From an uncultured Bacilli bacterium (lineage in GTDB: Bacteria; Bacillota_I; Bacilli_A; RF39; UBA660), in the NCBI GenBank assembly GCA_947628545.1, contig CANRAJ010000005.1, forward strand, positions 1 through 32,928: a stretch of 32,928 bases of DNA, in the 5' to 3' direction. Below the pieces are notes generated by a model, which made no database searches, was not told the DNA's origin, and saw only the letters and a program-made list of their open reading frames with translations. Of this stretch, positions 4,584-32,928 are shown in pieces (the stretch's first letter is position 1; the number at the start of each line of letters is the position of its first letter). Position numbers and translations under genes: made by a program.

Positions 4584-4790
4584 AGAATTATTTGTTTAAA
4601 GGAGTACTTTTAAAAAGATATTTAGCGAGCTAATGGTTGGTGAAAATTAGTTATATTTTTAAAAGGAAGACATTAAACGGGAAATAAGCGTAGTTCTGCG
4701 TTAAAGAAAAAAGAGCATAGATTCTATGAAGTAAGGTGGTACCGCGAAATATCTTCGTCCTTACAGCGTAGGATCTTTTTTATTTCAAGG
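4584..4790 (+). promoter_or_regulatory. T-box leader, Asp-specific
   Basis: A tRNA-sensing leader that lets transcription into aspS continue when uncharged tRNA-Asp binds. The T-box sequence AAGGTGGTACCGCG is at 4733-4746. Stem I shows the distal GGTTGGTG-type loop (4634-4642). The 3' side of the specifier loop has GAC at 4669-4671, an Asp codon, which fits the downstream gene. The terminator arm (TCCTTAC ... GTAGGA, about 4757-4773) is followed by a T-run at 4775-4781. The start coordinate is estimated from the promoter. Confidence 0.93.
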
Positions 4791-4798
4791 AGGAGAAA

Positions 4799-6529
4799 AT
4801 GGAAAATATTTATCGGAGCCATTATTGTGGCAATTTAACAAAAGAAAATGTTGGGCAAACTGTGCGCGTTGCCGGATGGATTAATTCTATTCGGAATTTA
4901 GGTAGCTTAGTCTTCGTAACATTAAGAGATGAAACGGGGTTAGTCCAAATAATCAGTGAAGATACGGCCCTTTTTAGTAATCTAACTCGGGAAAGTACAG
5001 CAACTATTACGGGAACAGTCCGGATGCGGAGCGATATTAACCCAAAGATGAAAACCGGCGAAATTGAAATTGTTTTAGAAACCATGGAAATATTAGGGCT
5101 TTGTCAAAATACTTTACCTTTTGAGGTAAATCGAAGCAAAGAGGCCAGTGAAGAAACGCGGTTAAAATATCGTTATTTGGATTTACGGAATCCGGCGGTT
5201 CACGATAAGATTGTCTTTCGGGTGCAAGTAATTGATTTTATTCGCCAAACCATGAAAGAATTGGGCTTCACGGAAATTGCTACCCCGATTATTACGGCCT
5301 CATCCCCCGAAGGAGCGCGGGACTTTGTTATTCCTTCCCGGAATTACAAGGGTAAGTTTTATGCACTACCGCAAGCACCGCAAATCTATAAGCAATTACT
5401 AATGGTTTCGGGATTTAATCGCTATTTTCAAATTGCGCCTTGCTTTCGGGACGAAGATTGTCGGGCCGACCGGACTTTAGAGTTTTATCAATTAGATTTA
5501 GAAATGAGTTTTGCCACTGAAGAAGATGTTTATGCTGTTGGCGAAAAAGTTTTCTATGATACGTTTACCAAATTTTCCAATCGTGAAGTCTCTCCGCGGC
5601 CTTTTAGAAGAATTCCTTACCGGGAAGCTATATCTAAATATGGTACCGATAAACCCGATTTACGAAATCCGTTACTCATCGAAGATATAACCGATATTTT
5701 AGCCAATACGGAGTTTAATGGTTTTAAAAATAAAACGATTAAAGTAATTAAAGTCGAAAGTTGTGCTAAACCAAATTCTTGGTATAAAAAACTAGAAGAT
5801 TTTATAAAAGCCAAAGGGGCAGCTGGACTGGCCTATTTAAAATATGAAGATGGAGAATTAAAGGGCTCTATTGTTAAATTCTTAAGTGAAGAGGAAATTG
5901 CAAGTTTAATTAAAAAATTGAATCTTCAAGATGGTAATGTTATTTTCTTTCTTGCGGATGCCAAAAACGCTAGCAAATATGCGGGTATCTTAAGAACAAA
6001 ATTAGGCGAAGATTTGGAATTAATTGATCATAATAAATATGAGTTTTGTATTATTAATGATTTTCCAATGTATGAATACAATGAAGAAGATCAAAAATGG
6101 GATTTTGGCCATAATCCTTTCAGTATGCCTAAAGGTGGCTTAGAAGCTCTAGAAAGTGCCAATATTGAAGACATTTTGGCTTACCAATACGATTTTGTTT
6201 GTAATGGTAATGAAATGGCTTCTGGAGCCGTGCGGAATCATGATATTGGTATTATGAAAAAAGCCTTTGCCATTGCCGGTTATGATGAAGAGGTCATTAA
6301 AAATAAATTCCGCAGTTTATATACCGCTTTCCAATTTGGGGCACCACCTCATGCCGGAATGGCACCCGGAATTGACCGTATTGTCATGCTTTTAACAGAT
6401 GAAGAAAACTTAAGAGAAGTCCAAGTATTTCCACCTAATGTTTCCGGTATGGATTTACTAATGGGTAGTCCAAATACTTTAGATGCCAAACAATTAAAAG
6501 AATTAGGCATTGAAATTACGGAAAAATAA
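4799..6529 (+). CDS. aspS: Aspartyl-tRNA synthetase
   Basis: 576 residues, bacterial-type class IIb AspRS (usual length about 590). It has an N-terminal OB-fold anticodon-binding domain (about 1-110), motif 1/2 regions R-Y-L-D-L-R-N-P and F-R-D-E-D-C-R-A-D-R, the bacterial insertion domain (about 285-420), and motif 3 in G-A-P-P-H-A-G-M-A-P-G-I-D-R. The residues after ADR differ from the common R-Q-P-E-F-T-Q form (T-L-E-F-Y-Q here), as does the final A-P-G-I-D-R (usually A-F-G-L-D-R). A strong AAGGAGG site lies 4 bases before the start. Expression is controlled by the upstream Asp T-box; a terminator separates it from hisS. Confidence 0.96.
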   Translation: MENIYRSHYCGNLTKENVGQTVRVAGWINSIRNLGSLVFVTLRDETGLVQIISEDTALFSNLTRESTATITGTVRMRSDINPKMKTGEIEIVLETMEILGLCQNTLPFEVNRSKEASEETRLKYRYLDLRNPAVHDKIVFRVQVIDFIRQTMKELGFTEIATPIITASSPEGARDFVIPSRNYKGKFYALPQAPQIYKQLLMVSGFNRYFQIAPCFRDEDCRADRTLEFYQLDLEMSFATEEDVYAVGEKVFYDTFTKFSNREVSPRPFRRIPYREAISKYGTDKPDLRNPLLIEDITDILANTEFNGFKNKTIKVIKVESCAKPNSWYKKLEDFIKAKGAAGLAYLKYEDGELKGSIVKFLSEEEIASLIKKLNLQDGNVIFFLADAKNASKYAGILRTKLGEDLELIDHNKYEFCIINDFPMYEYNEEDQKWDFGHNPFSMPKGGLEALESANIEDILAYQYDFVCNGNEMASGAVRNHDIGIMKKAFAIAGYDEEVIKNKFRSLYTAFQFGAPPHAGMAPGIDRIVMLLTDEENLREVQVFPPNVSGMDLLMGSPNTLDAKQLKELGIEITEK

Positions 6530-6621: not shown

Positions 6622-7875
6622 ATGATAGCTAAACCAAAAGGAACATATGATTTAATTGGCCTTGATGCTAAATTATACAACTATATTTATAATGTCGTCC
6701 AAGGTTATATGGACAATTACAATTATGAGTTTATCCGAACCCCAATTTTTGAGGCCAGTGAACTATTTCATCGAGGGGTGGGGGAAACGACCGATATTGT
6801 TACAAAAGAGACCTATGATTTTATCGATCGTGGCGAAAGAAATCTTACTTTAAGACCTGAGGGAACCGCCGGCGTTGTGCGCAGTGTCATTGAAAATAAA
6901 TTATATGGTAATCAAAATGGCCCATTAAAATATTATTATTTTGGCACAATGTATCGTTATGAAAGACCACAAGCCGGAAGATATCGGGAATTTAGTCAAA
7001 TGGGCGTTGAGGTATTTAACGCAAATGATCCAATGATTGATGCTGAGGTTATCTCCCTAGGTTATAATTTATTAAAAGAATTAGGCATTGAAAAATTTAC
7101 CGTCCATTTAAATACCTTAGGTGATTTAACTACTCGCCAAAACTATACGGCAGCCTTAAAAAAATATTTAAAACCGCATTTAGCCGAATTGTGTCCGGAT
7201 TGTCAAAAAAGATATGAAACCAATCCTTTACGGATTATTGACTGTAAAGCCGATAAAGATAATGATGTCTTAAAAAATGTGCCGAAGATTAGTGACTACT
7301 TAACGGATGAAAGTAAAGCATTATTTACGAAATTAAAAGAATTATTGACTATTTTAGATATCGACTATGAAATTGATGAAAGAATAGTTCGGGGACTTGA
7401 TTATTATGATTATAATGTTTGGGAATATGTAACTGATGATGCTAACATCTCCCTAGGCGGCGGGGGGCGCTATAATAATTTAGTTAAGACGCTCGATGGC
7501 CCGGATATGCCTGCCGTGGGTTTTGCTTTTGGCATTGATAGGGTTATTACCGAACTTAAAAATATTTTAGGTAGCCAAGAGTTTACCAATAATGTTGATG
7601 TCTATATTATGAGCGTCAATGATGAAGAAAAAATGCAAGCCTTGAGAATTGCTCAAGATTTACGCCTTAATAATGTAATGACGGAAATTAATAGTAATAA
7701 TTTAAGCTTAAAAAGCCAATTTAAGATGGCCGATAGTTTAAAGGCAAAATTTTTAGTTATCCTAAATAGTGATGATTTACAAAAGGGCTTAGTCAATATT
7801 AAAGATAATGTCACCAAAGAAGAAGTAAAAATTGATGAAGGTGAAATCGTCGATTGGATTTTAGGTAATATTTAG
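6622..7875 (+). CDS. hisS: Histidyl-tRNA synthetase
   Basis: 417 residues from ATG 6622, a normal HisRS length. Class II motifs are clear: R-P-E-G-T-A-G (motif 2 region), G-T-M-Y-R-Y-E-R-P-Q-A-G-R-Y-R-E-F, the His-specific V-R-G-L-D-Y-Y (about residue 258), G-G-G-G-R-Y and motif 3 G-F-A-F-G-I-D-R, followed by the C-terminal anticodon-binding domain. I prefer ATG 6622 because GGGAG at 6609-6613 is properly spaced and M-I-A-K-P-K-G-T-Y-D matches the family start; the in-frame GTG at 6604 and ATG at 6607 precede the ribosome-binding site. asnS follows closely in the same transcript. Confidence 0.95.
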   Translation: MIAKPKGTYDLIGLDAKLYNYIYNVVQGYMDNYNYEFIRTPIFEASELFHRGVGETTDIVTKETYDFIDRGERNLTLRPEGTAGVVRSVIENKLYGNQNGPLKYYYFGTMYRYERPQAGRYREFSQMGVEVFNANDPMIDAEVISLGYNLLKELGIEKFTVHLNTLGDLTTRQNYTAALKKYLKPHLAELCPDCQKRYETNPLRIIDCKADKDNDVLKNVPKISDYLTDESKALFTKLKELLTILDIDYEIDERIVRGLDYYDYNVWEYVTDDANISLGGGGRYNNLVKTLDGPDMPAVGFAFGIDRVITELKNILGSQEFTNNVDVYIMSVNDEEKMQALRIAQDLRLNNVMTEINSNNLSLKSQFKMADSLKAKFLVILNSDDLQKGLVNIKDNVTKEEVKIDEGEIVDWILGNI

Positions 7876-7889
7876 AAAGGATGAAAAAG

Positions 7890-9260
7890 ATGACAATTAA
7901 AGAATTAATAGCCAATTATCAAGCTCATTTGCAAAAAGATGTTGTTGTAAATGGGTGGATTCGAAATCACCGCAAACAAAAAGAATTTGGTTTTATTGAT
8001 TTATCTGATGGTACTTGCTTTAAACATGTGCAAGTGGTTTACGAAAAGAATTTAGCTAATTTTGAGGATATTCAAAAATTTTTAGTTGGTAGTGCCGTTG
8101 AAATAAAAGGGCAAGTTGTTGAATCCGCCGGCCAAGATGATTTCGAAATTAAAGCCACAAATATTACTTTATTAGGCGATTGTCCTGAAGATTATCCGAT
8201 TCAACCAAAAAGACATACTCGGGAGTTTTTAAGAGAACAGGCCTATCTTCGCCCTCGAACTAATCTTTTTCAAGCCGTGTTTCGCATTCGTTCTCTAGCG
8301 GCGATGGCTATTCATGAATATTTCCAAAATAATGGCTATATTTATTTTCATGCCCCTCTTATTACATCTAGTGACTGTGAAGGAGCCGGCGAAATGTTTC
8401 AAGTAACGACCCTCGATTTAGAAAGAGTGGCCCAAAGTGGTCAAGTTGATTATTCTAAAGATTTTTTTGGTAAACAAGCTGGTTTAACTGTTTCGGGACA
8501 ACTTGAAGCCGAAACCTTTGCCTTGGCTTTTAATAAAGTTTATACTTTTGGTCCCACTTTCCGGGCGGAAAATTCGAATACCAAAACCCATATGTCCGAA
8601 TTTTGGATGGTTGAACCCGAAATTGCTTTTTGCGATTTAGAAGGTCTTATGGATATTGAAGAAGAAATGCTTAAATATATCATAAATTATTGTTTAAATA
8701 AAGGTCATGATGAACTTGTTTTCTTAGATCAATTTGTCGAAAAGGGCTTAATTGATAAATTAACGAAAATCGTTAATTCCAAATTTACGCGAATTAGTCA
8801 TGAAGATGTCATTACGATTTTGAAAAAGGCCGATCAAAAATGGGAATTTCCTCCCGAATATGGTCAAGATATTGCCAAAGAACACGAAAAATACATTACC
8901 GAATATTTTGATGGTCCCGTTTTCATTACTAATTGGCCCAAAGATATTAAGGCCTTCTATATGAAACAAAATAATGATAATAAGACGGTAGCCGCCGTCG
9001 ATCTTGAAGTTCCTGGCGTTGGTGAACTTATGGGTGGCAGTCAAAGAGAAGAAGATTATACTAAATTAGTGACGCGAATGAAGGAATTAAAAATGAATCC
9101 CGATGATATGTATTGGTATGTTAATCTGCGCAAATATGGTACTTGTGTTCATTCGGGTTTTGGCCTTGGTTTTGAACGCTTAATTATGTATCTAACGGGC
9201 ATCGAAAACATTCGCGATGTCATTCCGTATTATCGGACACCTGGTAATTGTGATTTTTAG
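7890..9260 (+). CDS. asnS: Asparaginyl-tRNA synthetase
   Basis: 456 residues, class IIb. An N-terminal OB fold (G-W-I-R-N-H-R-K-Q-K near residue 22) is followed by the catalytic core with F-R-A-E-N-S-N-T, which is specific to AsnRS, and a C-terminal G-F-G-L-G-F-E-R motif 3. ATG 7890 (M-T-I-K-E-L-I) fits the GAAAGG site at 7875-7880; the in-frame ATG at 7881 would abut that site directly. It lies 14 bases after hisS. With AsnRS present, the GatCAB genes downstream are probably needed mainly for Gln-tRNA(Gln) formation (inference; glnS is not in the window). Confidence 0.95.
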   Translation: MTIKELIANYQAHLQKDVVVNGWIRNHRKQKEFGFIDLSDGTCFKHVQVVYEKNLANFEDIQKFLVGSAVEIKGQVVESAGQDDFEIKATNITLLGDCPEDYPIQPKRHTREFLREQAYLRPRTNLFQAVFRIRSLAAMAIHEYFQNNGYIYFHAPLITSSDCEGAGEMFQVTTLDLERVAQSGQVDYSKDFFGKQAGLTVSGQLEAETFALAFNKVYTFGPTFRAENSNTKTHMSEFWMVEPEIAFCDLEGLMDIEEEMLKYIINYCLNKGHDELVFLDQFVEKGLIDKLTKIVNSKFTRISHEDVITILKKADQKWEFPPEYGQDIAKEHEKYITEYFDGPVFITNWPKDIKAFYMKQNNDNKTVAAVDLEVPGVGELMGGSQREEDYTKLVTRMKELKMNPDDMYWYVNLRKYGTCVHSGFGLGFERLIMYLTGIENIRDVIPYYRTPGNCDF

Positions 9261-9683: not shown

Positions 9684-11124
9684 AACCCTTAAAGAAATCC
9701 ATGCGGCTTTAATAAATAAAGAGGTAACGAGTGCCGAATTAGTTGAAGAAGCCCTTACTAAAGCGCATCAAAATGCTAAAGAATGTAATTCTTTTGTAAC
9801 AATTCTTGATGAAGCCGAACCAACCGTGGTAACCGACAATATTTTATCCGGAATTCCGTATGGAGCAAAAGATAATTATTCGACTAAGGGCATTTTAACG
9901 ACTGGTTCTAGTAACACATTAAAAGATTATGTACCTTTTTATGATGCCACGGTTATTCAAAAATTAAAAGATGCCGGGGCCGTAATGATTGGCAAAACGG
10001 CCATGGATGAGTTTGGCATGGGCGGAACCGGAACAACAGCCCATACAGGCATTATAACCAATCCTTGGGACCATGAAAGAATGTGTGCCGGTTCTTCAGC
10101 TGGTTCGGCCGCCGCAGTAGCAGCTGGCGTATTTCCTTATGCTTTAGGAAGCGATACCGGTGATTCAATCCGGAAACCCGCGGCTTACTGTGGAATTGTG
10201 GGATATAAACCAACTTATGGTTTAATTTCGCGTTATGGTTTATTTCCTTATGCTTCTAGTTTAGATCATTGTGGCGTTTTAACGCGGTCAGTTGAAGATG
10301 CTGCCATCGTCGTCGATAATATTAAAGGGCAAGATCAAAACGATATGACTAGCTGGGATTCAAGTAATATTAATTTAACTAAATCCCTAACAGGTAATGT
10401 TAAAGGTAAAAAACTATGTTATATTAAAGAAATATGTGATATTGCTAATTATACCAATCCGACCCCAGAACTAACGGCCCATTTAGCCAATTTTAAGCAT
10501 ACTTTAGAAATATGTAAAAAATTAGGAATAACGGTGGAAGAAGTTAGTGTTGATCAAACCTTACTTAACGCTGAACCCGCCGTCTATGTTATTTTATCTT
10601 ATGCCGAAGCCACCAGTAATTTATCAAATTTAACGGGAATTATATTTGGCCCTCGGGGCGAAGGCAAAGATGTAAACGAAATGATGAAAGATCACCGAAC
10701 CAAGGGCTTTTCCCCTTTAATTAAAAGACGGTTTGTAATTGGTTCCTACGTTTTACAAAAAGAAAATCAAGAACGCTATTTTAAAAATGCTCAACGGGTA
10801 CGTCGCCTTTTAGTCGATGCTTGGAAAGATTTATTTAAAAACTATGATGGCGTTATTTTGCCGGTGGGAAGTGGACCGGCTAAATACTTAAAAGATGATG
10901 ATAATACATTAACGAAAAATACGGAAATATTAGAAGAACACTTACAAATTGGTAATTTTGGTGGTTTTCCTTCTATTACCATTCCCAATGGTTTTATTGC
11001 TAATTTACCAGTTGGGGTTAATATCACCGGCAATTGTTACGATGATGCCAATGTTTTAAATCTGGCGTATGCCTTAGAAAAGGCCATGAACTATCAAAAT
11101 ATGATCGCGGGGGATAAAAGATGA
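9667..11124 (+). CDS. gatA: Asp-tRNA(Asn)/Glu-tRNA(Gln) amidotransferase subunit A
   Basis: 485 residues. GatA is the glutaminase of the complex, an amidase-signature enzyme with a Ser-cisSer-Lys triad. Lys lies in G-I-P-Y-G-A-K-D-N (about residue 62), the first Ser in G-S-S-A-G-S (about 137), and the nucleophile in D-T-G-D-S-I-R (about 161-167). Most GatA proteins read D-T-G-G-S-I-R there; the Asp next to the nucleophile is an unusual but possibly lineage-specific change. The start has AAGGTGG nine bases upstream, inside gatC. The stop TGA overlaps the gatB start as ATGA, so the three genes are translationally coupled. Confidence 0.95.
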   Translation: MTYMNKTLKEIHAALINKEVTSAELVEEALTKAHQNAKECNSFVTILDEAEPTVVTDNILSGIPYGAKDNYSTKGILTTGSSNTLKDYVPFYDATVIQKLKDAGAVMIGKTAMDEFGMGGTGTTAHTGIITNPWDHERMCAGSSAGSAAAVAAGVFPYALGSDTGDSIRKPAAYCGIVGYKPTYGLISRYGLFPYASSLDHCGVLTRSVEDAAIVVDNIKGQDQNDMTSWDSSNINLTKSLTGNVKGKKLCYIKEICDIANYTNPTPELTAHLANFKHTLEICKKLGITVEEVSVDQTLLNAEPAVYVILSYAEATSNLSNLTGIIFGPRGEGKDVNEMMKDHRTKGFSPLIKRRFVIGSYVLQKENQERYFKNAQRVRRLLVDAWKDLFKNYDGVILPVGSGPAKYLKDDDNTLTKNTEILEEHLQIGNFGGFPSITIPNGFIANLPVGVNITGNCYDDANVLNLAYALEKAMNYQNMIAGDKR

Positions 11125-16712: not shown

Positions 16713-16718
16713 TAAATT

Positions 16719-16865
16719 GTCTAGAGGATAAGTTTATTATGTATAAAACCGACTAAGATAGAAAATTGGGAATCTAATTGACTGTGGTGTAGAAGACTTT
16801 TCCATTAAGTGAAAAAGGATCCTAAAGCAGTTCATGTGATGCCCACCTGCCGAGTGCGGGTTTTT
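16719..16865 (+). ncRNA. ssrS: Probable 6S RNA
   Basis: A stretch of about 147 bases without a credible reading frame, between a strong promoter and an intrinsic terminator (ACCTGC-CGAGT-GCGGGT plus T-run, 16845-16865). It can fold into a long interrupted rod: GGGAATC (16769-) with GATGCCC, GACTG with CAGTT, then CTTTT with AAAAG, leaving an internal bubble. That is the style of 6S RNA, which mimics an open promoter and sequesters RNA polymerase. Its place directly upstream of tcdA matches the 6S neighbourhood I recall for other Firmicutes. A covariance-model search has not been done. Confidence 0.55.
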
Positions 16866-16917
16866 ATCTAAAATAGACTTACCTTTGGACTTTTTTTATG
16901 TTTAATGAGGTGTTTTT

Positions 16918-19854: not shown

Positions 19855-19872
19855 TAAAGTACGAGGTTGCAA

Positions 19873-20751
19873 ATGAATGATAAGAATATTCAAGATTATC
19901 TAGATTATTTAAAATACGAACGAAAACTAGCAAAAAATACCTATGATTCTTATTATGAAAATTTAAAACAAGTTACCACTTATTTTGCCAATCAAAATAT
20001 TTTATTTTTAACCAAGGATAATATTCGCCAATTTTTAGGACAAATGGAATGTAGTGCCAAAACTAAGGCCCATTATCTTACCGTTTTAAACTCTTTTTAT
20101 AATTACATGATTTTGGTAGAAAAACTTACTAAAAATCCTTGTACGGCCATTAAAATGCCGAAAATTGAAAAGAAACTACCTAATTACTTAACGATAGAAG
20201 AGGTGGACCGCCTTTTAGATATTCAGTGCCTAAAACCTTTAGATTACCGCAATAAAGCGATGCTAGAAACATTGTATGCCACGGGAACTCGCATTAGTGA
20301 ATTAATTAATTTAAAATTTAACGAAATTAGTTTTGATGATTGTACCATTAGAATAATGGGGAAGGGGAAGAAAGAGCGAATTATTCCCATTGGGGATGTG
20401 GCTTTAAATTATTTAAAGTTATATATTAATGATTATCGACGGTTTCTTTTAAAAAACAATACTGATTATATTTTCTTAAATAAAAATGGCGATCCCATTA
20501 GTCGCGTTGGTTTTTTTAAAATATTAAAAGAACTTTGTCGCAAAGCGGGAATAAAAAAAGATGTTTCACCCCATACTTTACGTCATTCTTTTGCCACCCA
20601 TCTTTTAAATAATGGGGCGGATTTGCGAATAATCCAAGAATTATTAGGTCATGAAAACTTAAGCACCACTGAAATATATTCTCATATTTCCAATAAAAAA
20701 CTCGAAGAAGATTATCAAAATCATCCTCGAGCTAAAATAGAAAAAGAATAG
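19873..20751 (+). CDS. xerD: Tyrosine recombinase XerD-like
   Basis: 292 residues. N-terminal SAM-like core-binding domain (about 1-85) and C-terminal catalytic domain with the full set: Arg in A-T-G-T-R-I-S-E-L (about 143), Lys in G-K-G-K-K-E-R, H-T-L-R-H (about 240), G-H-E-N and the Tyr nucleophile in E-I-Y-S-H. It resolves chromosome dimers at dif with its partner. Because a prophage boundary lies only 0.5 kb away, a phage integrase was considered, but the length and motifs are those of a housekeeping Xer. ATG 19873 is preceded by ACGAGG; the TTG at 19867 is too close to that site. Confidence 0.88.
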   Translation: MNDKNIQDYLDYLKYERKLAKNTYDSYYENLKQVTTYFANQNILFLTKDNIRQFLGQMECSAKTKAHYLTVLNSFYNYMILVEKLTKNPCTAIKMPKIEKKLPNYLTIEEVDRLLDIQCLKPLDYRNKAMLETLYATGTRISELINLKFNEISFDDCTIRIMGKGKKERIIPIGDVALNYLKLYINDYRRFLLKNNTDYIFLNKNGDPISRVGFFKILKELCRKAGIKKDVSPHTLRHSFATHLLNNGADLRIIQELLGHENLSTTEIYSHISNKKLEEDYQNHPRAKIEKE

Positions 20752-21468: not shown

Positions 21469-23400
21469 CTATTCCTCCTTTCCTAATTGTTTTTCAAGAT
21501 AATCTACTTTTTGTTGTAGGGCTTTAAGACAAGTTAATAAATATTTGTCTAACACATTAGAATCATATTCTTTGTATTCAATAATGTCTTCCCCAAGATT
21601 TTCTTTATCAAAATTTTCTTCATCCATAACAGATGGGTCGATTGTCCCATTGTCTGAAACTTTAGCATATAGCGTTTCTAATTTAAAGAATTTGTCATAG
21701 TTTGGTAGGGCTTCTAAATCATCAATTATGAACCCATATTGGTGTTTGTCTTTATATAATTTGTATTTGTAATCATAACTACAAATGTCGATTGATTTTA
21801 ATAGTTGATATGCTTCGTCATAGTCTTGACTCTTAAATGGCGTTATTTTCTCTTTTAAGATTCTTGATGACGCTTGACCTTCACTGGTTTGAACACGTCC
21901 AGAAGATAAGTTATTACCAGATGCCCATACTGATGCAGAACCATTCGCATTAAGTTCTATCTTCGACCATAAATAAATGTTGCAGCCGTTTGATGATGCC
22001 ATTTCAACACCATCGTCAGCATAAATGTTCATTTGATTAGTTGCCCCACGAGATGTATCTTGATAGCAACGAATATAACCAACTGACGTACCCGTGCTTG
22101 TGATAGATTGCGAACTTCTGAATGTTACGCCCGTTCCACCACCTCGACAGATATTCAAGGCACTGACATATGGATGGGTTATATCAGGAACACTGCCATA
22201 TCCGGGTCCCATTACGAAGAAGCCGGCATTATTTGTTAATTCAAGATGTCCACCAGAATAAATCTTTACATAGTTGCCGCAAGTTAAGTTCGATGCACTT
22301 ATTGTTCCACCACTTATACGAGCCGCACTCATCGTTCCGGATGTGATACGAGCAGCACTCATTGAGCCAGACGTAATGTTGCTGGCACTAAGATTTGTTA
22401 TATTAACATTGTTACCATTGATTGTTCCACCATAGATACGGTCAGCACTCATTGTACCGGACGTAATTTTACCAGCACTTAGGTTTGGTATACGGGCTTC
22501 ATTAAATGTCCCTGAGGTTACGTTAGCGGCTGCTACATTCAAAGTCCCATTGACTATTGAACAACCACCAATCGTACCAGCATTGGCTGTTATTGTACCC
22601 GTTATGGTGGCTTGTGACGCCGTTAGAGCACCGGCAGTTGTAACGGTGAAGTTTTGTCCTAAAGTGATAGAACCGCCCGTTACAGTTAAATTTGAACAAG
22701 TAACGGCACCTGCTCGAGTTACTCTAAATGGTGCAGAACCCGGTGCATCATTACCAGCCCATATCGCATAATTAACGCCAGACGTTCCGCTATCAAGTCC
22801 CACATAATTGGCACCAGTACCGCTATACAAGCGTGTTGCACCAAGAGACCATCCGCCTATCTTACCGGCGGTTGCTGTAATCGAACCTTCTTTGGTGACA
22901 CTAAAATAAGGTGATGTGATAGTAATTCCTTTTGTACCATTCAAAACGATATTCATACCATCCAAGTTAATGTTGTCGGCTACGATAGTGAAGGCTGTAC
23001 CTAAAGACGCATCTCTTTCAAGAGTGGTTGTAACAATGCGGTCGCCTTCGACTTTAAGAACAACTTCGCCAGCCAATTTGGTTAGTTGGTCGGCGTTACC
23101 TTCAACATTGGTTCCGTGTTTAAGAGCAACCCAAGAATTGGTAAGAGAACCGCTTTTGGTTTCTATTTCAACTGAGTCACCAACATAAAGGGCTTCGCCA
23201 CATTTGTTTAATACATTAGTTAATAAAATATCTCTATTAGGAGGCAAATATACATCTACCGTGCCATCATCATTAACTTTTTGTACTATGGCGGCTCTAT
23301 AAGTTGGGAATCCATTTTTCTTTATTTCATCTTTCGCAATATCTTTGATAACGTCTCGTAGGCTTTCTAGGTCTCGAGTACGATATTTGTTTCCTAACAT
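21469..23400 (-). CDS. Phage tail fibre with C-terminal S74 intramolecular chaperone
   Basis: 643 residues from ATG 23400, which has AAGGAGG upstream; in-frame starts further up overlap the transposase terminator. The N-terminus contains a small beta domain (about 30-110). The middle is a long Gly/Thr/Ser-rich beta region with repeated I-T-S-G-T-M-S-A-x-R-I units (about 300-370), typical of trimeric fibres. The C-terminus has S-S-R-I-L-K-E-K-I (about 515), Y-G-F-I-I-D-D-L and a final coiled coil (A-L-Q-Q-K-V-D-Y-L-E-K-Q), the layout of peptidase S74 chaperones that help the fibre trimerise and then cut themselves off at the Ser using the nearby Lys. It is likely a host-recognition fibre. Confidence 0.85.
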   Translation of the reverse strand: MLGNKYRTRDLESLRDVIKDIAKDEIKKNGFPTYRAAIVQKVNDDGTVDVYLPPNRDILLTNVLNKCGEALYVGDSVEIETKSGSLTNSWVALKHGTNVEGNADQLTKLAGEVVLKVEGDRIVTTTLERDASLGTAFTIVADNINLDGMNIVLNGTKGITITSPYFSVTKEGSITATAGKIGGWSLGATRLYSGTGANYVGLDSGTSGVNYAIWAGNDAPGSAPFRVTRAGAVTCSNLTVTGGSITLGQNFTVTTAGALTASQATITGTITANAGTIGGCSIVNGTLNVAAANVTSGTFNEARIPNLSAGKITSGTMSADRIYGGTINGNNVNITNLSASNITSGSMSAARITSGTMSAARISGGTISASNLTCGNYVKIYSGGHLELTNNAGFFVMGPGYGSVPDITHPYVSALNICRGGGTGVTFRSSQSITSTGTSVGYIRCYQDTSRGATNQMNIYADDGVEMASSNGCNIYLWSKIELNANGSASVWASGNNLSSGRVQTSEGQASSRILKEKITPFKSQDYDEAYQLLKSIDICSYDYKYKLYKDKHQYGFIIDDLEALPNYDKFFKLETLYAKVSDNGTIDPSVMDEENFDKENLGEDIIEYKEYDSNVLDKYLLTCLKALQQKVDYLEKQLGKEE

Positions 23401-23425
23401 ATTTTTACCTCCTTCCATAGGGCAT

Positions 23426-23450
23426 AAAAAAAGCAACTACTTTAAGTAGT
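23426..23450 (-). terminator. Intrinsic terminator after the transposase gene
   Basis: ACTACTT/AAGTAGT dyad at 23436-23450, followed on the minus strand by T7 (23426-23432). The transposase stop codon lies within it, so the S74 fibre gene must be read from its own signal or by readthrough. Confidence 0.7.
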
Positions 23451-24968
23451 CACTAAAAATCCTTCTTCTGTTATTTCTATATTCTTGTTATACCAATTTA
23501 ATAATTTAGTCATTCGTCTTCTAATCTCGGACGTCTTTTCAATAGATGATATTAAGAACAGGTTTGGATATTCTTGTTTAATTTGTACTTGGACAAAAGG
23601 TGGGAGAGAGTCATATCGTTCTTTTAATAATTGTTTTCTTCTACGTGCTTTTGCTTCAGGTGAGCGAGGTTTCTTTGGATATTGCCTTGGCACACATATA
23701 TTAACGTCTTTACTTTTTGTAGCATCTTTTAACATATCCATAACATCTTCTACGGTGTTTTCAATTCTATCACGATAATCTTTGTAGCCATTACCATAAG
23801 GCTTTATTCCTATGGCTTTCCGTTCTTCTAGTATATCATCTTGTCTCTTACAGAAATTTGGTTTCGCTTGATAATTCTTTCGCAAGATACCATAGACTGG
23901 TTTATCACTACACATAATATCTTCTAATGTTATGTCTTTAATATCTACATCATCAAATTGTTCTGGCAGTATCATTCTATAATCTTTTAAATCATATGTT
24001 TTATTTCCAAATCTTCCCATACGGCGTATGTCTATAACTTGAGGTGAGAATACACCTTGATATAAAATATCATCGATTGCTTTTTCAAAGTCAGTATGAT
24101 TATATCTAAAATCACTTTCAATTAAGTAACCATAAAGCCATTCTTTTGGTAAGTTTGAATGAGTAGAATAATACATCTTTTTAACAATACCCCAATATCC
24201 TTCTATACCATTTGTTGTATAGCCATTTTCGTTTACTCGTTGATTAATTGAATGGTCTACAGCCTCGTGCTTATATTTGCTATCAGGTTTGTCATAACGC
24301 CTATAAGTTCTAAAATCATCACTAACAATAGTTGAACCCGGCAAGATTAATTTTTCAACAAAACTGTTAATAGCATCAAACGATAGATATCTTCCTTTTT
24401 CATCTGGAATAGATGGATAAGAATAAACTCTTTTTTTAGCACCATCATAAATACCTAAGACGGCAACTTTATCTGATTTATCAAAATCTTTTTTACTGAA
24501 TCTTCCGTGGTTACTTCCACCGGTGAAAACCTCATCAATCTGGATAACACCCGAAAAGGGTTCTAAGTCATAATTGTTCATAGCCGCTTGAATTAATCTA
24601 CGCTTTGTATAAATAGAAGTATTAGACATATGCGTCTCTCTTCTTAACTGAAAATTAGAGATACTTTTTCTTGATACAAATACTTCATAAATTATATGGA
24701 ACCAATTTATAAGAGATGTTTGAGTTGATTCAAACATAGTCCCAACAAATATTGAGAAATCACGTCTACAGTTTCCACACATATAAATCTTAGGGCGGTT
24801 ATGTTTGTAAACATATTTTGAGTTACCACAATATGGACATACAATCTCCCCATTAGGGCATATATGTTCTACAATAAATTCATACACATCATTTTCTGTC
24901 TTAAATCTGTTCATAAATTCTTGAAAATTAGGTGTATTCATTATAACATCATAACCTGTTCTACACAT
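23442..24968 (-). CDS. IS1595 (ISXO2-like) DDE transposase with a long C-terminal extension
   Basis: 508 residues. N-terminal zinc ribbon C-P-Y-C ... C-G-N-C (about residues 45-66), a helix-turn-helix region, then the DDE core: Q-I-D-E-V-F (first Asp), V-S-D-D-F-R-T-Y (second Asp) and N-G-I-E-G-Y-W-G-I-V-K-K (acidic third residue region). IS1595 transposases are usually about 300 residues; here about 190 extra residues follow, rich in basic and aromatic residues (P-K-K-P-R-S-P-E-A-K-A-R-R-R-K). I see no clear terminal inverted repeats around it, so it may be an immobile or phage-borne transposase. The start at 24968 has GAGGAG upstream. Its promoter is overlapped by an RHH-type operator (25012-25041). 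Confidence 0.85.
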   Translation of the reverse strand: MCRTGYDVIMNTPNFQEFMNRFKTENDVYEFIVEHICPNGEIVCPYCGNSKYVYKHNRPKIYMCGNCRRDFSIFVGTMFESTQTSLINWFHIIYEVFVSRKSISNFQLRRETHMSNTSIYTKRRLIQAAMNNYDLEPFSGVIQIDEVFTGGSNHGRFSKKDFDKSDKVAVLGIYDGAKKRVYSYPSIPDEKGRYLSFDAINSFVEKLILPGSTIVSDDFRTYRRYDKPDSKYKHEAVDHSINQRVNENGYTTNGIEGYWGIVKKMYYSTHSNLPKEWLYGYLIESDFRYNHTDFEKAIDDILYQGVFSPQVIDIRRMGRFGNKTYDLKDYRMILPEQFDDVDIKDITLEDIMCSDKPVYGILRKNYQAKPNFCKRQDDILEERKAIGIKPYGNGYKDYRDRIENTVEDVMDMLKDATKSKDVNICVPRQYPKKPRSPEAKARRRKQLLKERYDSLPPFVQVQIKQEYPNLFLISSIEKTSEIRRRMTKLLNWYNKNIEITEEGFLVTT

Positions 24969-28112: not shown

Positions 28113-28127
28113 GTGGATTTTGTTTTA
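28091..28127 (+). terminator. Terminator of the HTH regulator gene
   Basis: ACAAAATCCACC (28091-28102) and GGTGGATTTTGT (28112-28123) form a perfect 12-bp stem around a 9-base loop, followed by a short T-run. The facing minus-strand tail gene ends at 28125, so the same hairpin may stop both transcripts. Confidence 0.8.
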
Positions 28128-28523
28128 TCTAGCAAAAAAGACAATTCTTAAAGGTAGCCAACTACCACTCGGTACAGTAATAGCATCGTTGACGCCATAT
28201 CTTGAAATTGTACCTCTTCCATCTTCATATATACATAATAGCCATTTATTCATTCCACTCCCGGCACATATCGTTCTAATATTAGCATTAGGTCTATATC
28301 CTTCTGGGATATTGAATATAGTTTTATTATCTCCACCATTTGTAATATCTGTAGTAGGCTTTAGAACAGCATTAATTTCTACTAGCTTGCCAACTTTACG
28401 ATACCAACATTCATTTTGAGAATTATAAAATGTAAAACCTGATGCAATAGATAAAGGAATGTTCCCTGTATCTTTATTAAAATTATTTAAAGCATCTTCT
28501 ATTAAATCTGGATTTATTTTCAT
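28125..28523 (-). CDS. Tail-tip module B4: M-K-I-N-P-D-L-I anchor with receptor-binding-like domain
   Basis: 132 residues. After the shared N-terminus M-K-I-N-P-D-L-I it has a short linker and a beta-rich domain with C-W-Y-R-K-V-G-K-L-V-E-I-N, I-P-E-G-Y-R-P and I-Y-E-D-G-R-G-T-I-S. This pattern is common at the C-terminus of Firmicutes phage tail fibres that touch the host. It is the last gene of the array. No Shine-Dalgarno sequence is evident; instead a small hairpin (GTATC 28529-28533 with GATAC 28542-28546) lies right before the start. Confidence 0.75.
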   Translation of the reverse strand: MKINPDLIEDALNNFNKDTGNIPLSIASGFTFYNSQNECWYRKVGKLVEINAVLKPTTDITNGGDNKTIFNIPEGYRPNANIRTICAGSGMNKWLLCIYEDGRGTISRYGVNDAITVPSGSWLPLRIVFFAR

Positions 28524-28546: not shown

Positions 28547-28945
28547 TCAACTTATTCTTCTATACATATATACAACTACATACGGTTGTAAGTTATTATG
28601 TGGTTGGCTATTACCGGTATTCCCAACAGGTGTAGTAGACATACTAATATCGCCTACATAATTATAAGAATAGACGAAATTATTCCCACCAGTAGGCGTG
28701 TTATCATAAACTGCTGATACATAATGAGTATGACTAGCAAGTTCTGCTTCAGTTAATTTATGTGTTTTCTCCCCACCAGTCTTGCCGACAGTGCCAAATT
28801 CATTGTCACCTGATTGGTAACCAACAAGGCAGCGTCCGGCTGCGTAGCGTTCCCATTTGCCACCAAATAACACGCTTGGGTCAACGGTATTCGTTGTTAT
28901 ATATATAGAACCTATAGGATAAACTAAATCAACATTTATTTTCAT
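28547..28945 (-). CDS. Tail-tip module A3: tail-collar-like protein
   Basis: 132 residues from ATG 28945 (the start shared by the array); an in-frame TTG at 28966 is not needed. After M-K-I-N-V-D-L-I come Y-P-I-G-S-I-Y, L-F-G-G-K-W, T-G-G-E, S-H-T-H and the closing Q-P-H-N-N-L-Q-P-Y-V-V-V-Y-M, the pattern of phage tail-collar/short-tail-fibre domains. The H-x-H motif resembles the metal-binding receptor tip of T4 gp12. It lies between modules B3 and B4. Confidence 0.85.
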   Translation of the reverse strand: MKINVDLVYPIGSIYITTNTVDPSVLFGGKWERYAAGRCLVGYQSGDNEFGTVGKTGGEKTHKLTEAELASHTHYVSAVYDNTPTGGNNFVYSYNYVGDISMSTTPVGNTGNSQPHNNLQPYVVVYMYRRIS

Positions 28946-28974: not shown

Positions 28975-29412
28975 TTAGTTGAAGGTTAATTTTAATGAAA
29001 CGATTTCGGCTGCTACAGGTGTATTGTTTGTAATTTTATTACCAGAGCCATCTGTGAATGGAACGCCGCTTTCTCTAAAAGCGAATCTTAATATCGTTCC
29101 ATTTGCTTTTTGTACATATGAATCGGGTAATGTTTTTAGTGTGAAATGTGCTGTATCATTACTTGCTGTATTTTTATCACTTCTAAAATAACCTTGATTA
29201 TTTCTAAATACAACCTCAAATTCATTTATTGTAATTGTATTTATTTTATCTAATCTTTTAGGTAAAATTACACTAGAATAAACTGTGCTAGAACCGCTTG
29301 AAACTATGCTAGACATATATAAAGAACTGTTTCCAAATTCAAAAGTTTCTCCCGGTTTAAAATACATTTCATCATTTAAAGCGTCTTTTATTAAATCGGG
29401 ATTAATCTTCAT
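28975..29412 (-). CDS. Tail-tip module B3: M-K-I-N-P-D-L-I anchor with a unique domain
   Basis: 145 residues from ATG 29412, the one array gene with a strong ribosome-binding site (GGAGG at 29425-29421). The shared anchor is followed by a domain unlike the other B modules (F-E-F-G-N-S-S-L-Y-M, V-I-L-P-K-R-L-D-K-I, F-E-V-V-F-R-N-N-Q-G-Y-F), Ser/Thr-rich and beta-like, resembling a carbohydrate-binding or fibre-head domain only in general style. It lies directly downstream of the poly-G-interrupted stretch, whose restored frame would end over its start codon. Confidence 0.7.
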   Translation of the reverse strand: MKINPDLIKDALNDEMYFKPGETFEFGNSSLYMSSIVSSGSSTVYSSVILPKRLDKINTITINEFEVVFRNNQGYFRSDKNTASNDTAHFTLKTLPDSYVQKANGTILRFAFRESGVPFTDGSGNKITNNTPVAAEIVSLKLTFN

Positions 29413-29737
29413 AAACAAAACCTCCGCTTGATAAAGGGGAAGATACTACAGACCTTCCACCTCCAATCCTATTAAAGAAGGTTGAGTGGTAAACTCGAAC
29501 CTCCTTTTCTTCGTAAATTTGCCAAGCACTTTGTGCCCCCCCCGCACGATTTGTTAGGGGTTAAAATATTGTTTTTCATAAGCATTTCTGCTATCTTTTT
29601 ATCATCAATTTCAACTCTAAAAATGCGTCTTTTCCAAGACGTTCTTTTCCAAACATCTGACGATGTTCGAAACGTTTCCAAGACGGCTGACGCCATCTCG
29701 ATTTCTTTTCCAAACATCTGACGATGTTCGAAACGCA
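29402..29737 (-). other. Poly-G-interrupted reading frame between modules A2 and B3
   Basis: No intact gene is present. One frame runs from the end of module A2 through K-K-I-A-E-M-L-M-K-N-N to S-C-G-G at the 8-G run (29543-29536). A different frame then reads A-Q-S-A-W-Q-I-Y-E-E-K for 44 residues, ending at TAA 29404-29402 on top of the B3 start. Seven or ten G would join the two frames. As sequenced, the first frame instead runs on to a stop near 29472. This looks like a small gene switched off by tract length, but the upstream start is uncertain. Confidence 0.45.
29536..29543 (-). repeat. Poly-G tract 1 (8 G on the minus strand)
   Basis: Eight C on the plus strand inside GCACTTTGTGC-C(n)-GCAC (overall 29527-29547), in AT-rich surroundings. 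The flanks are shared with tract 3. Confidence 0.9.
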
Positions 29738-29757
29738 CTATGCAGTGCGTTTCCACA
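29622..29757. repeat. Cluster of small hairpins with a 33-bp direct repeat
   Basis: The 33-bp sequence starting TTCTTTTCCAAACATC is present identically at 29642-29674 and 29703-29735. Each copy holds AACATC-TGAC-GATGTT. Between the copies a diverged unit has GGC-TGAC-GCC, keeping the loop and the pairing with different bases. Flanking dyads are CGTCTT-TTCC-AAGACG (about 29624-29639) and GAAACGCACT-ATGC-AGTGCGTTTC (about 29730-29753), a 10-bp stem that covers the end of module A2. Confidence 0.85.
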
Positions 29758-30154
29758 TATAGCAAGTTATGTACGGTTGAAGATTTTCAGAGTCACCAGT
29801 TCCTTCAGTGTTTGTTGCTAAATTTGAAGTAGAACCTTTTGCATTCAATATATTGTCATTCCAACTCCAACTCTGAACCACTAGTGATTGTTGTCCTTCT
29901 CCGGCATTAGAAATAGAAACACCAGCACCGGCAGGACTCCCAAACCTAACATCGTGGTAGTGATTTTGCATAAACTTACTTCCGCCAGTCTTTTCAACCG
30001 ACTCAAACTCGCTTTGTGCACTATCTACGCCAACTGGTACTCGTCCATTTCCCCAACGAACCCACGTGCCACCAAACAATGTGCTTGGATTAACGGTGCT
30101 CGTTGTTAGGTATATCGAACCTATTGGGTAGATTAAATCTATGTTTATTTTCAT
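29738..30154 (-). CDS. Tail-tip module A2: tail-collar-like protein
   Basis: 138 residues. M-K-I-N-I-D-L-I, Y-P-I-G-S-I-Y, L-F-G-G-T-W-V-R-W, K-T-G-G, N-H-Y-H (H-x-H) and the closing N-L-Q-P-Y-I-T-C-Y-M-W-K-R-T-A. Compared with A1 and A3, about seven residues are missing between the T-G-G and H-x-H motifs. Its last codons lie inside the hairpin cluster at 29622-29757. No clear Shine-Dalgarno sequence. The family suggests a trimeric receptor-binding tip. Confidence 0.82.
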   Translation of the reverse strand: MKINIDLIYPIGSIYLTTSTVNPSTLFGGTWVRWGNGRVPVGVDSAQSEFESVEKTGGSKFMQNHYHDVRFGSPAGAGVSISNAGEGQQSLVVQSWSWNDNILNAKGSTSNLATNTEGTGDSENLQPYITCYMWKRTA

Positions 30155-30178
30155 TTTCTTTGGTTTTTAATCATTCTC

Positions 30179-30580
30179 TTATTTCCATCTTCCTATTGCA
30201 ATAACATTTACATATACTGATTCAGGGCTAGAAGAATTATTATTATGGAGATATCCTAAAAATCTATCACAGCATTTATTTGTATAAGAACCTCTTTCCT
30301 TACTACTGTCATTGTAGGGTACAAGTGAAAATAAATTATTATTATAATAAGTTATTTGTGTATATGGGTCTTCTATAAAATTTACTGGATAATTAGGTAC
30401 TCCAAATGTTCTTGAATAATAATATAAAGTTGCATTACCTTCTTCAGATTTTACTCCAAGATTACATACTACGTTTAAAACAAATTTTTGCAGACAGACC
30501 ATTGTTCCATCCACAAATTTATATGCAATGCCATTGCTATTGGTTATGGTTTCAAATATTAAATCAGGATTTATTTTCAT
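30179..30580 (-). CDS. Tail-tip module B2: receptor-binding-like protein
   Basis: 133 residues. The shared anchor M-K-I-N-P-D-L-I is followed by N-S-N-G-I-A-Y-K-F-V-D-G-T-M-V-C, Y-P-V-N-F-I-E-D-P and the ending V-I-A-I-G-R-W-K. The order (DGTxxC, F/Y-P-x-x-F-I-E-x-P, I-G-R-W-K) is that of C-terminal adhesion domains on Firmicutes tail proteins and matches module B1. It lies between A1 and A2, all on the minus strand with short gaps. Confidence 0.78.
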   Translation of the reverse strand: MKINPDLIFETITNSNGIAYKFVDGTMVCLQKFVLNVVCNLGVKSEEGNATLYYYSRTFGVPNYPVNFIEDPYTQITYYNNNLFSLVPYNDSSKERGSYTNKCCDRFLGYLHNNNSSSPESVYVNVIAIGRWK

Positions 30581-30617
30581 ATTTTTTTACTATACAGAGA
30601 ATTAAAGAGGGCTAGGC

Positions 30618-30989
30618 TTACGAAGTTCTCCTCCAAATGTTCACAACTTGATATGGTGGCATATTGTTATGAGGTTGGTCACCACCTGCAAATTGACACG
30701 CATTTGAAAGCGTGGTATTTCCGTTATTATGATTATAATAGATTGCTTCTGCATTTCCAGTTGTCCATCCTGCATACATATCATGATGATGCGAAGGCAT
30801 TTCCGATATTGTTAATTTATGAGTTTCTTCGCCACCTGTACTTCCAAGCGAGTAGGCTGAACTTGAGCCCAACAAAAAACGCCCTTCGATTTTTGTCCAT
30901 TTGCCACCAAAGAGCGTTTCTGGATTTACTGCCAACGTGCTCATATAGATTGAGCCTATTGGATAGATTAAGTCTACGTTTATTTTCAT
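30618..30989 (-). CDS. Tail-tip module A1: tail-collar-like protein
   Basis: 123 residues. M-K-I-N-V-D-L-I, Y-P-I-G-S-I-Y-M-S-T, L-F-G-G-K-W, S-T-G-G-E-E-T-H-K-L-T, P-S-H-H-H and Q-P-H-N-N-M-P-P-Y-Q-V-V-N-I-W-R-R-T-S are the standard tail-collar/receptor-tip pattern, with the H-x-H metal motif. A GGCTT/AAGCC hairpin (30998-31012) sits just before the ATG, where a ribosome-binding site would be expected. Confidence 0.85.
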   Translation of the reverse strand: MKINVDLIYPIGSIYMSTLAVNPETLFGGKWTKIEGRFLLGSSSAYSLGSTGGEETHKLTISEMPSHHHDMYAGWTTGNAEAIYYNHNNGNTTLSNACQFAGGDQPHNNMPPYQVVNIWRRTS

Positions 30990-31046
30990 TTCTGTTCGGC
31001 TTTTGTGAAGCCTTGCTTGTAATTTTGTGATGTGCTTATGCTTGTA

Positions 31047-31457
31047 TTACTTCCATCTTCCCATAGAGAAAATATCAATTTTATAATCCTTATCTACACC
31101 TTCAGTCCCACGTAATAAAACAACATTTTCTGGCTTAGCAGTAGTTGGCAGTCCATCCGGTGCAATTACTGATTCAGCAAAATGATTAGTATAAACTACA
31201 TATGGAACTTCAATAAATTGTGAAGGAAAATTTGGCGTGCTTATAACCGTGCTTTGAAAAAGACTTCCCCAAGTAGTTGTTATATCTACTCTTCCTTCTA
31301 CGCTTTGAAAGCAATACATTCTTCCATCTGAAAGTTTTATGTATTCGCCATTTGTATTTTTGCCGGATTCTACAATCTCGATTTTCTTATCTACATCTTG
31401 TAGGTCGGCAAGGCGGCGGTTTGTTCCACTCACGATTAGGTCGCCATTAATTTGCAT
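31047..31457 (-). CDS. Tail-tip module B1: receptor-binding-like protein
   Basis: 136 residues from ATG 31457, matching the array consensus (M-Q-I-N-G-D-L-I). A short linker (N-R-R-L-A-D-L-Q-D-V) is followed by N-G-E-Y-I-K-L-S-D-G-R-M-Y-C, F-P-S-Q-F-I-E-V-P and the ending F-S-M-G-R-W-K, the same adhesion-domain pattern as module B2. It is the first module after the structural protein and the poly-G-interrupted stretch, whose alternative frame ends on its start. Confidence 0.78.
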   Translation of the reverse strand: MQINGDLIVSGTNRRLADLQDVDKKIEIVESGKNTNGEYIKLSDGRMYCFQSVEGRVDITTTWGSLFQSTVISTPNFPSQFIEVPYVVYTNHFAESVIAPDGLPTTAKPENVVLLRGTEGVDKDYKIDIFSMGRWK

Positions 31458-31610
31458 ACGCATCACCGAGCAAGGCTGCTAAAATAAATTCGCCTTGCCC
31501 CCTTTCATTAGGGTAGTCTCTATATAGCGACTGCCCCCTTTCTGTATAGCGTTTTTGTGTTTGCGTGATGTGTGTTGTGCGGCGTTTGCAAGAAATCGAA
31601 CACATTCTTG

Positions 31611-31619
31611 CCCCCCCCC
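31611..31619 (-). repeat. Poly-G tract 2 (9 G on the minus strand)
   Basis: Nine C on the plus strand, in TGTGTGC-G9-CAAGAATGTG (minus-strand reading), 154 bases before the B1 start. Its core GTGC-G(n)-CA is shared with tracts 1 and 3. Confidence 0.9.
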
Positions 31620-31756
31620 GCACACACATTGAGGAGAATGACTATTCGCTAATGCGACTAACCATTCACCTCCTTGTTTAGAGTCGAAATTGCTGCTTTG
31701 GTTAGATAGCAATTCCTCCTCTCTTGCGTTGTTCTTTTCTTGTTGAGCACTTTGTG

Positions 31757-31766
31757 CCCCCCCCCC
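31757..31766 (-). repeat. Poly-G tract 3 (10 G on the minus strand)
   Basis: Ten C on the plus strand. On the minus strand it reads GTGC-G10-CACAAAGTGCT, with TTAACCC upstream, as at tract 1. GCAC-AAA-GTGC forms a hairpin at its edge. Confidence 0.9.
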
Positions 31767-31833
31767 GCACTTACGGTTGGGTTAAGAAAAGAACTTATAA
31801 AATGTATTAAATTCATTTAAAAAAACTCCTCTC

Positions 31834-32928
31834 TTACAATTTAGGTTGTAATTCAAGTCCTGTTAAATCTAAAGTATATAATATCTTTTCATCAACTCTA
31901 ATTGACAACCCAATATTTTGTCTATTATCTTTATTAAGTTTGACATTAATATTATAATCATTCGTATCAAAATTTGCCCAAGTGCTTGGTGCGAATCCAA
32001 ATGACACAGTTCCTTTAGGTAATTTTGTATTATCAATATGTAATGCGATATAGTTACCTTCAGTATCAGCACCGCATTCATAATCTTCTACATATTTTAT
32101 TGTACCAGTTACTTTATTATCATCTGAGAACACCAAATCATCTTCTTGTAAATCTCTTACGAATTTGTTATATGTTGCTGCACTTTGTGCTCTTGCTGAA
32201 ACAACTTCTGAAACCTTTGGTAATATTGCAACGTCAGATATATCTAATGTTTGTGATTTATTAATTTTGCCACTAACATCAACTTTGATAGGTTTCTTTT
32301 GTTTTAATTTAATAAGGTATTGATAATCGTCTGGACTTAATTCAATTTCTTGACCACCATCATATGAGCATTTAACTGTGTTTTCAGCATCTTTGGCTTG
32401 AGGGAACTCTAACATTAAATAGTTTCCATCGCCACCGGCACCAACAACGCCACTAGCATATTTAGAATAGCCTTTAACTTTATTATCAGCCACCGTTATA
32501 TCCATTTGAATATCTTTAACTTGCTTATTAATATTGTTTATTTGTGTTTCTGCACTTGGTGCGTCAACTTCAACTTCTGGTTCAACTGAACCACCGTTAA
32601 CTTTTTCAATCATTTCTTCCAATTTGCTTCCTAATTGGCAAGATTGTAAAGTTCCACAAATTCCGTTGTTAATCTTTTCGATAGTGTCTTCGTTCATTTC
32701 TTCAACATCGCCACTACCTTTTACGGCTTTGATTATATTATTTAAAATATAAGCGGCATCCGTAATATCAGAGCCGCTACACATTTTATCTAATGCTTCA
32801 ATATCTTTATCATCTAAGACATCACCATCAAATTCAGAGCCATTCATTATACTATCGTATAATTTATCAATAATATTACCTAGGCTAATTTTAGCAGCAG
32901 CAGGGCAATATTTATCGATTTCCTCGAA
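31834..32928 (-). CDS. Phage structural protein with internal duplication (5' end outside window)
   Basis: The frame is open from the window edge to TAA at 31834-31836; the internal ATG at 32847 has no ribosome-binding site, so the start lies beyond the window. At least 364 residues. The N-terminal part is acidic and helical. The C-terminal part has two related beta segments, each starting with Gly-Asn-Tyr (D-G-N-Y-L-M-L-E-F and E-G-N-Y-I-A-L-H-I) and ending with V-D-x-S/R type strands and L-D-I/L, about 120 residues apart. It sits directly upstream of the tail-tip array, so a tail or baseplate component is the best guess; I do not recognise the family. Confidence 0.6.
   Translation of the reverse strand, partial: FEEIDKYCPAAAKISLGNIIDKLYDSIMNGSEFDGDVLDDKDIEALDKMCSGSDITDAAYILNNIIKAVKGSGDVEEMNEDTIEKINNGICGTLQSCQLGSKLEEMIEKVNGGSVEPEVEVDAPSAETQINNINKQVKDIQMDITVADNKVKGYSKYASGVVGAGGDGNYLMLEFPQAKDAENTVKCSYDGGQEIELSPDDYQYLIKLKQKKPIKVDVSGKINKSQTLDISDVAILPKVSEVVSARAQSAATYNKFVRDLQEDDLVFSDDNKVTGTIKYVEDYECGADTEGNYIALHIDNTKLPKGTVSFGFAPSTWANFDTNDYNINVKLNKDNRQNIGLSIRVDEKILYTLDLTGLELQPKL

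Follow-up and report, generated by a model that had tools for sequence, protein, structure and literature searches.

The stretch of DNA analyzed here (the window) is a whole contig of 32,928 nucleotides (nt) from the metagenome-assembled genome (MAG) of an uncultured Bacilli bacterium (GenBank assembly GCA_947628545.1, contig CANRAJ010000005.1). At its right end, the minus strand carries an array of small phage tail-tip genes with three long runs of G among them. Read along the coding strand, the array begins with a gene cut by the contig end and continues with a leader (leader B), small genes of 120 to 150 amino acids, a second leader (leader A), and three more small genes (Table 1). A first-pass annotation, made from the letters of the sequence, had taken the window for phage DNA and placed the G-runs in its tail-tip region. 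The region was named correctly, but the tracts lie in the leaders between the tail genes, outside the tail genes themselves. Likewise, prophage-like sequence is confined to the right third of the contig, from ~19.8 kb rightward, with a tyrosine recombinase, an S74 tail protein, and then the tail-tip array, whereas the left part is bacterial.

The tracts are C-runs on the plus strand and G-runs of 8, 9, and 10 on the coding strand, lengths that come from a MAG assembly and may be off by one. As first noticed, all three share the motif GTGC-G(n)-CA, and tracts 1 and 3 have longer flanks in common (TTAACCC...GTGC-G(n)-CACAAAGTGCT). Such runs are found nowhere else in the window: the longest other run of G or C is 6 (a single G6 at 7462-7467), and the lengths of C-runs on the plus strand pass directly from 5 to 8, 9, and 10. 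The expectation for GTGCG8+...CAC in shuffled sequences is 0.00. Throughout the 1.10-Mb genome, runs of at least 8 G are confined to the three window tracts and two places on C69, a phage tail contig of the same genome, and TGCG7+CA was absent from 57 of 58 other genomes searched. The simple repeats of the window are far longer than chance predicts, a property by which contingency loci are recognized. A mobile or widespread repeated element was considered and rejected, because neither viral contigs nor relatives contain GTGC-G(n)-CACAAAGTGC in its exact form. On C69, tracts lie directly in genes, alongside the leader type of the window: in its tail locus, a G8 (4894-4901) falls within the first 35 codons of a 296-amino-acid tail gene, and a G9 (6067-6075) lies near the start of an open reading frame cut by the contig end.

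To describe the leaders, frames were read in unaltered sequences, in all three frames after each tract. The window tracts were found inside leader frames that look transcribed. Leader B starts at an ATG (31816-31814, sequence MNLIHFISSFLNPTVSAGGG...) with an AGGAG Shine-Dalgarno site in front. Exactly one frame is open between tract 3 and tract 2. Of the three frames that follow tract 2, one continues to the next gene and has its stop (TAA 31449-31447) over the start ATG 31457-31455, while the other two stop early. For leader A, the nearest in-frame ATG is at 29579-29577; the frame is open well upstream, and the exact start is uncertain. Behind tract 1, two frames end 59 and 33 nt short of the next gene, and the third runs on to TAA 29404-29402, which overlaps the start of that gene (ATG 29412-29410). 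With the tracts as long as assembled, both leaders run into an early stop, at 31658 in leader B and 29472 in leader A. Judged from these frames, the length of the leader repeat would set the reading frame, with an ON and an OFF outcome. Both leader regions also fold far better than their shuffled counterparts (Table 1).

The same layout was present in at least a dozen other phages and prophages, whose loci had been fetched by tail-protein similarity, independently of any repeat. Their repeat units differ, comprising G(8-11), (AT)n, (AC)n, (ACAA)n, and (ATCA)n (Table 1). The shared motif had been read as a reused element; its flanks are indeed shared, but the motif is not essential, since relatives use the other units in its stead. 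A gene of 84% identity precedes both leader B of the window and the first (AT)n leader of the MAG G218, and the G-tracts and AT-tracts thus occupy the same place. Units of 1, 2, and 4 bp occur at this place in different phages. Such interchange would be expected if selection acts on hypermutability and not on the repeat sequence.

The frame logic was conserved along with the position. An open frame across the tracts, whose absence from relatives had been named beforehand as grounds for giving up the slippage proposal, is present in every leader analyzed. All 19 final tracts scored have one downstream frame that ends +1 to +14 of the next ATG, versus 2.1 expected from dinucleotide shuffles. The set includes homologous leaders, which are only partly independent of one another, and some of its members first came to notice through a listing marked for coupling. 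When all repeats were listed without a coupling filter, coupling was found in 20 of the 26 distinct entries that lie off long reading frames. The remaining six are three tracts that stand first in a series and have an open frame into the next one, one opposite-strand entry (the tract of L291), and the exceptions L227 and L291. The overlap between stop and start, mostly at +4 or +11, is found in one of the three phases, as translational coupling would have it, and each of the five inter-tract segments of multi-tract leaders has exactly one frame open through. The coupled phase itself is occupied in 6 of 23 leaders, a proportion compatible with one third (random phase) and not with a fixed phase.

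Length variation was observed directly in one pair of relatives. The arrays of two rabbit-gut MAGs from two genera, Lapin-028 (G218, locus L178) and Lapin-018 (G372, locus L179), are 95 to 98% identical ("rabbit" is taken from the French isolate name). All three comparable (AT)n leader repeats differ between them (20 versus 28, 20 versus 18, and 18 versus 22 bp), none of the differences being a multiple of 3, and the 424 nt outside the repeats contain 4 mismatches and no indel. For one of these leaders (leader c), G372 has the coupled phase and G218 an early-stop phase. The comparison of tract lengths, which the first-pass annotation had proposed for strains, revealed variation between these relatives in the syntenic (AT)n leaders.

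A cultured phage has the same organization. Eggerthella phage LE2-3 (MW679026.1; host Eggerthella lenta DSM 2243; 63% G+C) carries G9, G9, G8, G9, and G8, all in its tail-tip array, and in the 16 kb read, G-runs of 6 or 7 were absent and the C-runs did not exceed 5. The tract at 7954 follows the conserved WKRT end of a tip gene, and there, as at the tract at 9739, one frame ends at +11 of the next ATG; at the tract at 10631, the frame of the deposited phase ends at +4 of the next GTG. Another tract, at 7457, lies in a run of glycine codons inside a tip gene, and the deposited frame misses the conserved end. In the annotated gene LE23_93 (7091-8011; our locus L356), the conserved ...VWKRTA end lies in another frame across the G9 tract. 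Because the deposited frame at 7457 misses the conserved end, LE23_93 is probably a frame-shifted read-through of two tip genes.

In most leaders, a hairpin headed by GGAGG stands just 5' of the gene's own Shine-Dalgarno site. In leader A of the window and in L178, L198, L273, L317, and L260, a hairpin headed by GGAGGTG, often with a ATTTAATAT-like loop, lies ahead of the tail gene's own site, also GGAGGTG, and the hairpin reads GGxYLIS in the coupled-phase frame.

Based on these results, we consider it likely that the tracts are contingency (phase-variation) sites in short leader frames that gate the translation of phage tail-tip genes. The core of the first-pass proposal, namely slippage sites that vary adsorption-related genes, is strongly supported by the relatives, with the site placed in the leaders of the tail genes. 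Since the tracts lie in upstream leader frames, they probably act by altering translation of the next gene and not by truncating a tail protein. In the mechanism we propose, slipped-strand mispairing at replication would alter the repeat length and hence the frame of the ribosome that leaves the tract. In one phase of three, the leader would be open through the series of hairpins, its stop codon would overlap the start codon of the next tail gene, and terminating ribosomes would re-initiate at the overlapped start (translational coupling). In the other two phases, ribosomes would stop 20 to 240 nt earlier, the start region would remain covered by folded hairpins, and little or no tail-gene product would be made. 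Leaders with two or three tracts would require all of them to be in phase simultaneously and would work as AND gates. The last step might instead be polarity, early termination exposing the mRNA to Rho, with the same outcome.

Several observations weigh against this proposal. In many leaders, though not in all, structure prediction places most of the downstream Shine-Dalgarno site in base pairs, and in leader A of the window the site is predicted to be mostly free (0.65 unpaired); because pairing is predicted in only part of the leaders, the coupling step is one that we infer. Leader A has, in addition, a weak Shine-Dalgarno site at its own start. At the LE2-3 tract at 10631, a second frame also ends near the next start (+8, beside +4). 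Searches for another allele of the window or L198 found none, and no length variation was seen in G-tracts; L248 and L249 do not differ in the length of their repeats, although both may come from a single population. Finally, the control with repeat-free tail-gene starts yielded only 2 usable cases.

The leaders could alternatively be structural RNA or DNA elements, serving as hairpin stabilizers of the mRNA or as recombination joints at which tail modules are shuffled, with repeats and frames as by-products. Such a role would agree with their strong folding (z of -6.1 and -8.05), with the GGAGG-headed hairpin before the start in most of them, and with the mosaic arrays and duplicated gene ends. 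However, it leaves unexplained why a single open frame ends exactly at the next start codon and why several repeat units occur at one place, and we regard it as unlikely. The hairpins are compatible with gating by leader frames and are probably a component of it. Programmed ribosomal frameshifting or transcriptional slippage, by which a tract of fixed length would yield a constant shifted fraction and keep the tail gene always at a set low level, appears quite improbable to us. G-runs can be slippery, structured RNA lies 3' of them, and alternative open frames exist; on the other hand, neither the syntenic (AT)n nor the other (AC)n, (ACAA)n, and (ATCA)n repeats are known slippery sites, and near-identical phages differ in length in ways that change the phase. 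A programmed site should also hold one phase, whereas the phases here are mixed (6 of 23 coupled). The fixed length and phase and the slippery heptamer of a programmed -1 frameshift were not found, as phase and unit vary among relatives.

A variable G-repeat in an mRNA leader is also a known type of target for a trans-acting small RNA (sRNA). According to the published account (PMC8295292), the variable G-repeat in the Helicobacter pylori tlpB leader is targeted by the sRNA RepG, and the length of such a repeat could tune expression gradually. We consider this very improbable for the tail-tip leaders: one sRNA could not serve them, because the repeat units differ between phages, and the coupling of frames would be left unexplained. 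Least credible is a sequencing or assembly artifact, for although the contigs are metagenomic and nothing in an assembly is less reliable than the length of a homopolymer, the same architecture recurs in independent assemblies and in cultured phage LE2-3, dinucleotide and tetranucleotide repeats occur as well, and frames outside the tracts are unaffected.

The products of the putatively gated genes may have a role in receptor recognition. Across the leaders, these genes are mostly of the Gp10_C type, and three of the small genes of the window encode Gp10_C (PF21939) proteins. The PF21939 profile has a match (E value of 3.7e-15) in the C-terminal domain of T4 gp10, whose structure is solved, and a structure model of moderate quality (predicted local distance difference test score of 72) served solely as confirmation of this gp10 fold. 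Proteins of this type are ~50% identical to the C terminus of "putative antireceptors" of Lactobacillus delbrueckii phages, a region linked to adsorption specificity. The gated products are putative exposed receptor-recognition tips, and receptor switching may be the purpose of the switch. We think it rather probable that gut Firmicutes and Actinobacteria phages and prophages carry arrays of interchangeable receptor-binding tips with repeat-length switches of their own, some needing two or three tracts in phase, and that a population would thereby become a combinatorial library of receptor specificities by slippage alone.

The proposed switch shares features with several known systems. The simple-sequence contingency loci of bacteria (poly-G in Campylobacter and surface genes in Neisseria and Haemophilus) likewise combine a hypermutable repeat, frame-dependent ON/OFF logic, products at the cell-recognition surface (putative here), and mixed phases between strains. 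In contrast to them, the leaders described here lie in phage or prophage tail-tip arrays, form a separate coupled frame, often hold several repeats in series, and have an interchangeable unit type. Mu/P1 G/C-segment inversion and diversity-generating retroelements work by a recombinase or a reverse transcriptase. They, too, vary receptor-binding proteins within a phage clone, whereas the proposed switch would act on expression, by replication slippage and with no dedicated enzyme. No reverse transcriptase was found among the window proteins scanned, in an incomplete scan of a contig that ends at 32928. In leader-peptide coupling or attenuation, a short upstream frame through hairpins similarly controls the next gene via a stop/start overlap, but the signal there is ribosome stalling and here would be a heritable random change of frame. 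RepG at tlpB has in common with the leaders a variable G-repeat in an mRNA leader, and differs in acting by sRNA pairing with gradual effects of length, while the leaders would act by reading frame.

Poly-G promoter-spacer switches of the Neisseria porA type also use poly-G as a length-dependent switch. In these, the tract lies between -35 and -10, whereas in the leaders it lies between a start codon and the coupled stop/start overlap. In the family of the window's host, runs of at least 9 G were found in 163 of 291 genomes, with up to 140 matches in one genome, and the three other genomes of its own genus in this sample had none. Among 30 loci examined from the family (L108-L137), 17 have a G-run in a TTGACA/TATAAT-like promoter spacer (e.g., L132, L112, L114, and L122). 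Judged by sequence pattern, promoter-spacer phase variation appears to be common across this uncultured family.

The open-access literature searched describes phase-variable phage receptors in bacteria, but it yielded no account of a repeat-based switch in a phage tail gene, subscription journals not being covered. A leader-frame switch before phage tail genes has apparently not been described before. Bacteria phase-vary phage receptors by simple repeats, and phages appear to do likewise for the matching tail tips. If true, this would be a recombinase-free route to host-range diversity in gut phages. The combination of a repeat with a single open frame to a stop/start overlap is a signature that can be mined in any virome, and Eggerthella phage LE2-3 offers a testable cultured model.

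Table 1. Features of the window (positions in the 32,928-nt contig) and repeats in the leaders of relatives
Feature	Position	Strand	Remarks
Tract 1, G8	29536-29543	minus	repeat of leader A
Tract 2, G9	31611-31619	minus	second repeat of leader B
Tract 3, G10	31757-31766	minus	first repeat of leader B
Leader A	29413-29579	minus	one tract (1); fold z-score -6.11 for 29411-29770
Leader B	31458-31816	minus	two tracts (3, 2); fold z-score -8.05
Gene upstream of leader B, 364+ amino acids	31834-32928	minus	cut by contig end; 84% identity to G218 counterpart
Tail gene putatively gated by leader B (MQINGDLIVSG...)	31047-31457	minus	weak PHROG 2712 tail-fiber match
Gp10_C (PF21939) tail-tip gene	30618-30989	minus	E value 1.2e-21; model matches T4 gp10 C-terminal domain 2fkk
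Array gene, PHROG 2712 tail fiber	30179-30580	minus	
Gp10_C (PF21939) tail-tip gene	29738-30154	minus	E value 6.3e-26
Small gene putatively gated by leader A (MKINPDLIKDA...)	28975-29412	minus	no family match; N terminus resembles other array genes
Gp10_C (PF21939) tail-tip gene	28547-28945	minus	
Array gene starting MKINPDLIEDA	28125-28523	minus	last of array
Tyrosine recombinase	19867-20751		marks prophage-like part beside host genes
S74-type tail protein	21469-23436		marks prophage-like part
IS1595-family transposase	23442-24968		marks prophage-like part
Leader in G229			G8
Leader in G010			G11
Leader in G021			(AT)n
Leader in G144			(ACAA)13
Leaders in G218 and G372			(AT)9-14
L198 (IMG/VR)			G8, G9, G9, then G9
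L273 (IMG/VR)			G8, G9, G9
L248 (IMG/VR)			(ATCA)13 and (AC)9
L256 (IMG/VR)			(ACAA)9
L260 (IMG/VR)			(TA)6
L282 (IMG/VR)			(TA)15
L317 (IMG/VR)			(AC)16

DNA similarity searches revealed no similarity of the whole region to known phages and only short chance matches within the host genus, and an Rfam scan of the region gave no family match, with one chance match far below the cutoff. Within the array, two exact 33-nt copies holding a ...WKRT-like gene end are found at 29642-29674 and 29703-29735 of the window, and extra ...WKRTA* fragments follow intact gene ends at ~571 and ~1663 of L178. Both are probable scars of recombination at the conserved 3' ends of tip genes. The bacterial left part of the contig encodes a MurJ-like flippase, RelA/SpoT, a class II aminoacyl-tRNA synthetase, RarA, and 6S RNA; the T-box leader before the synthetase gene and the 6S RNA are located at 4588-4765 and 16715-16895.

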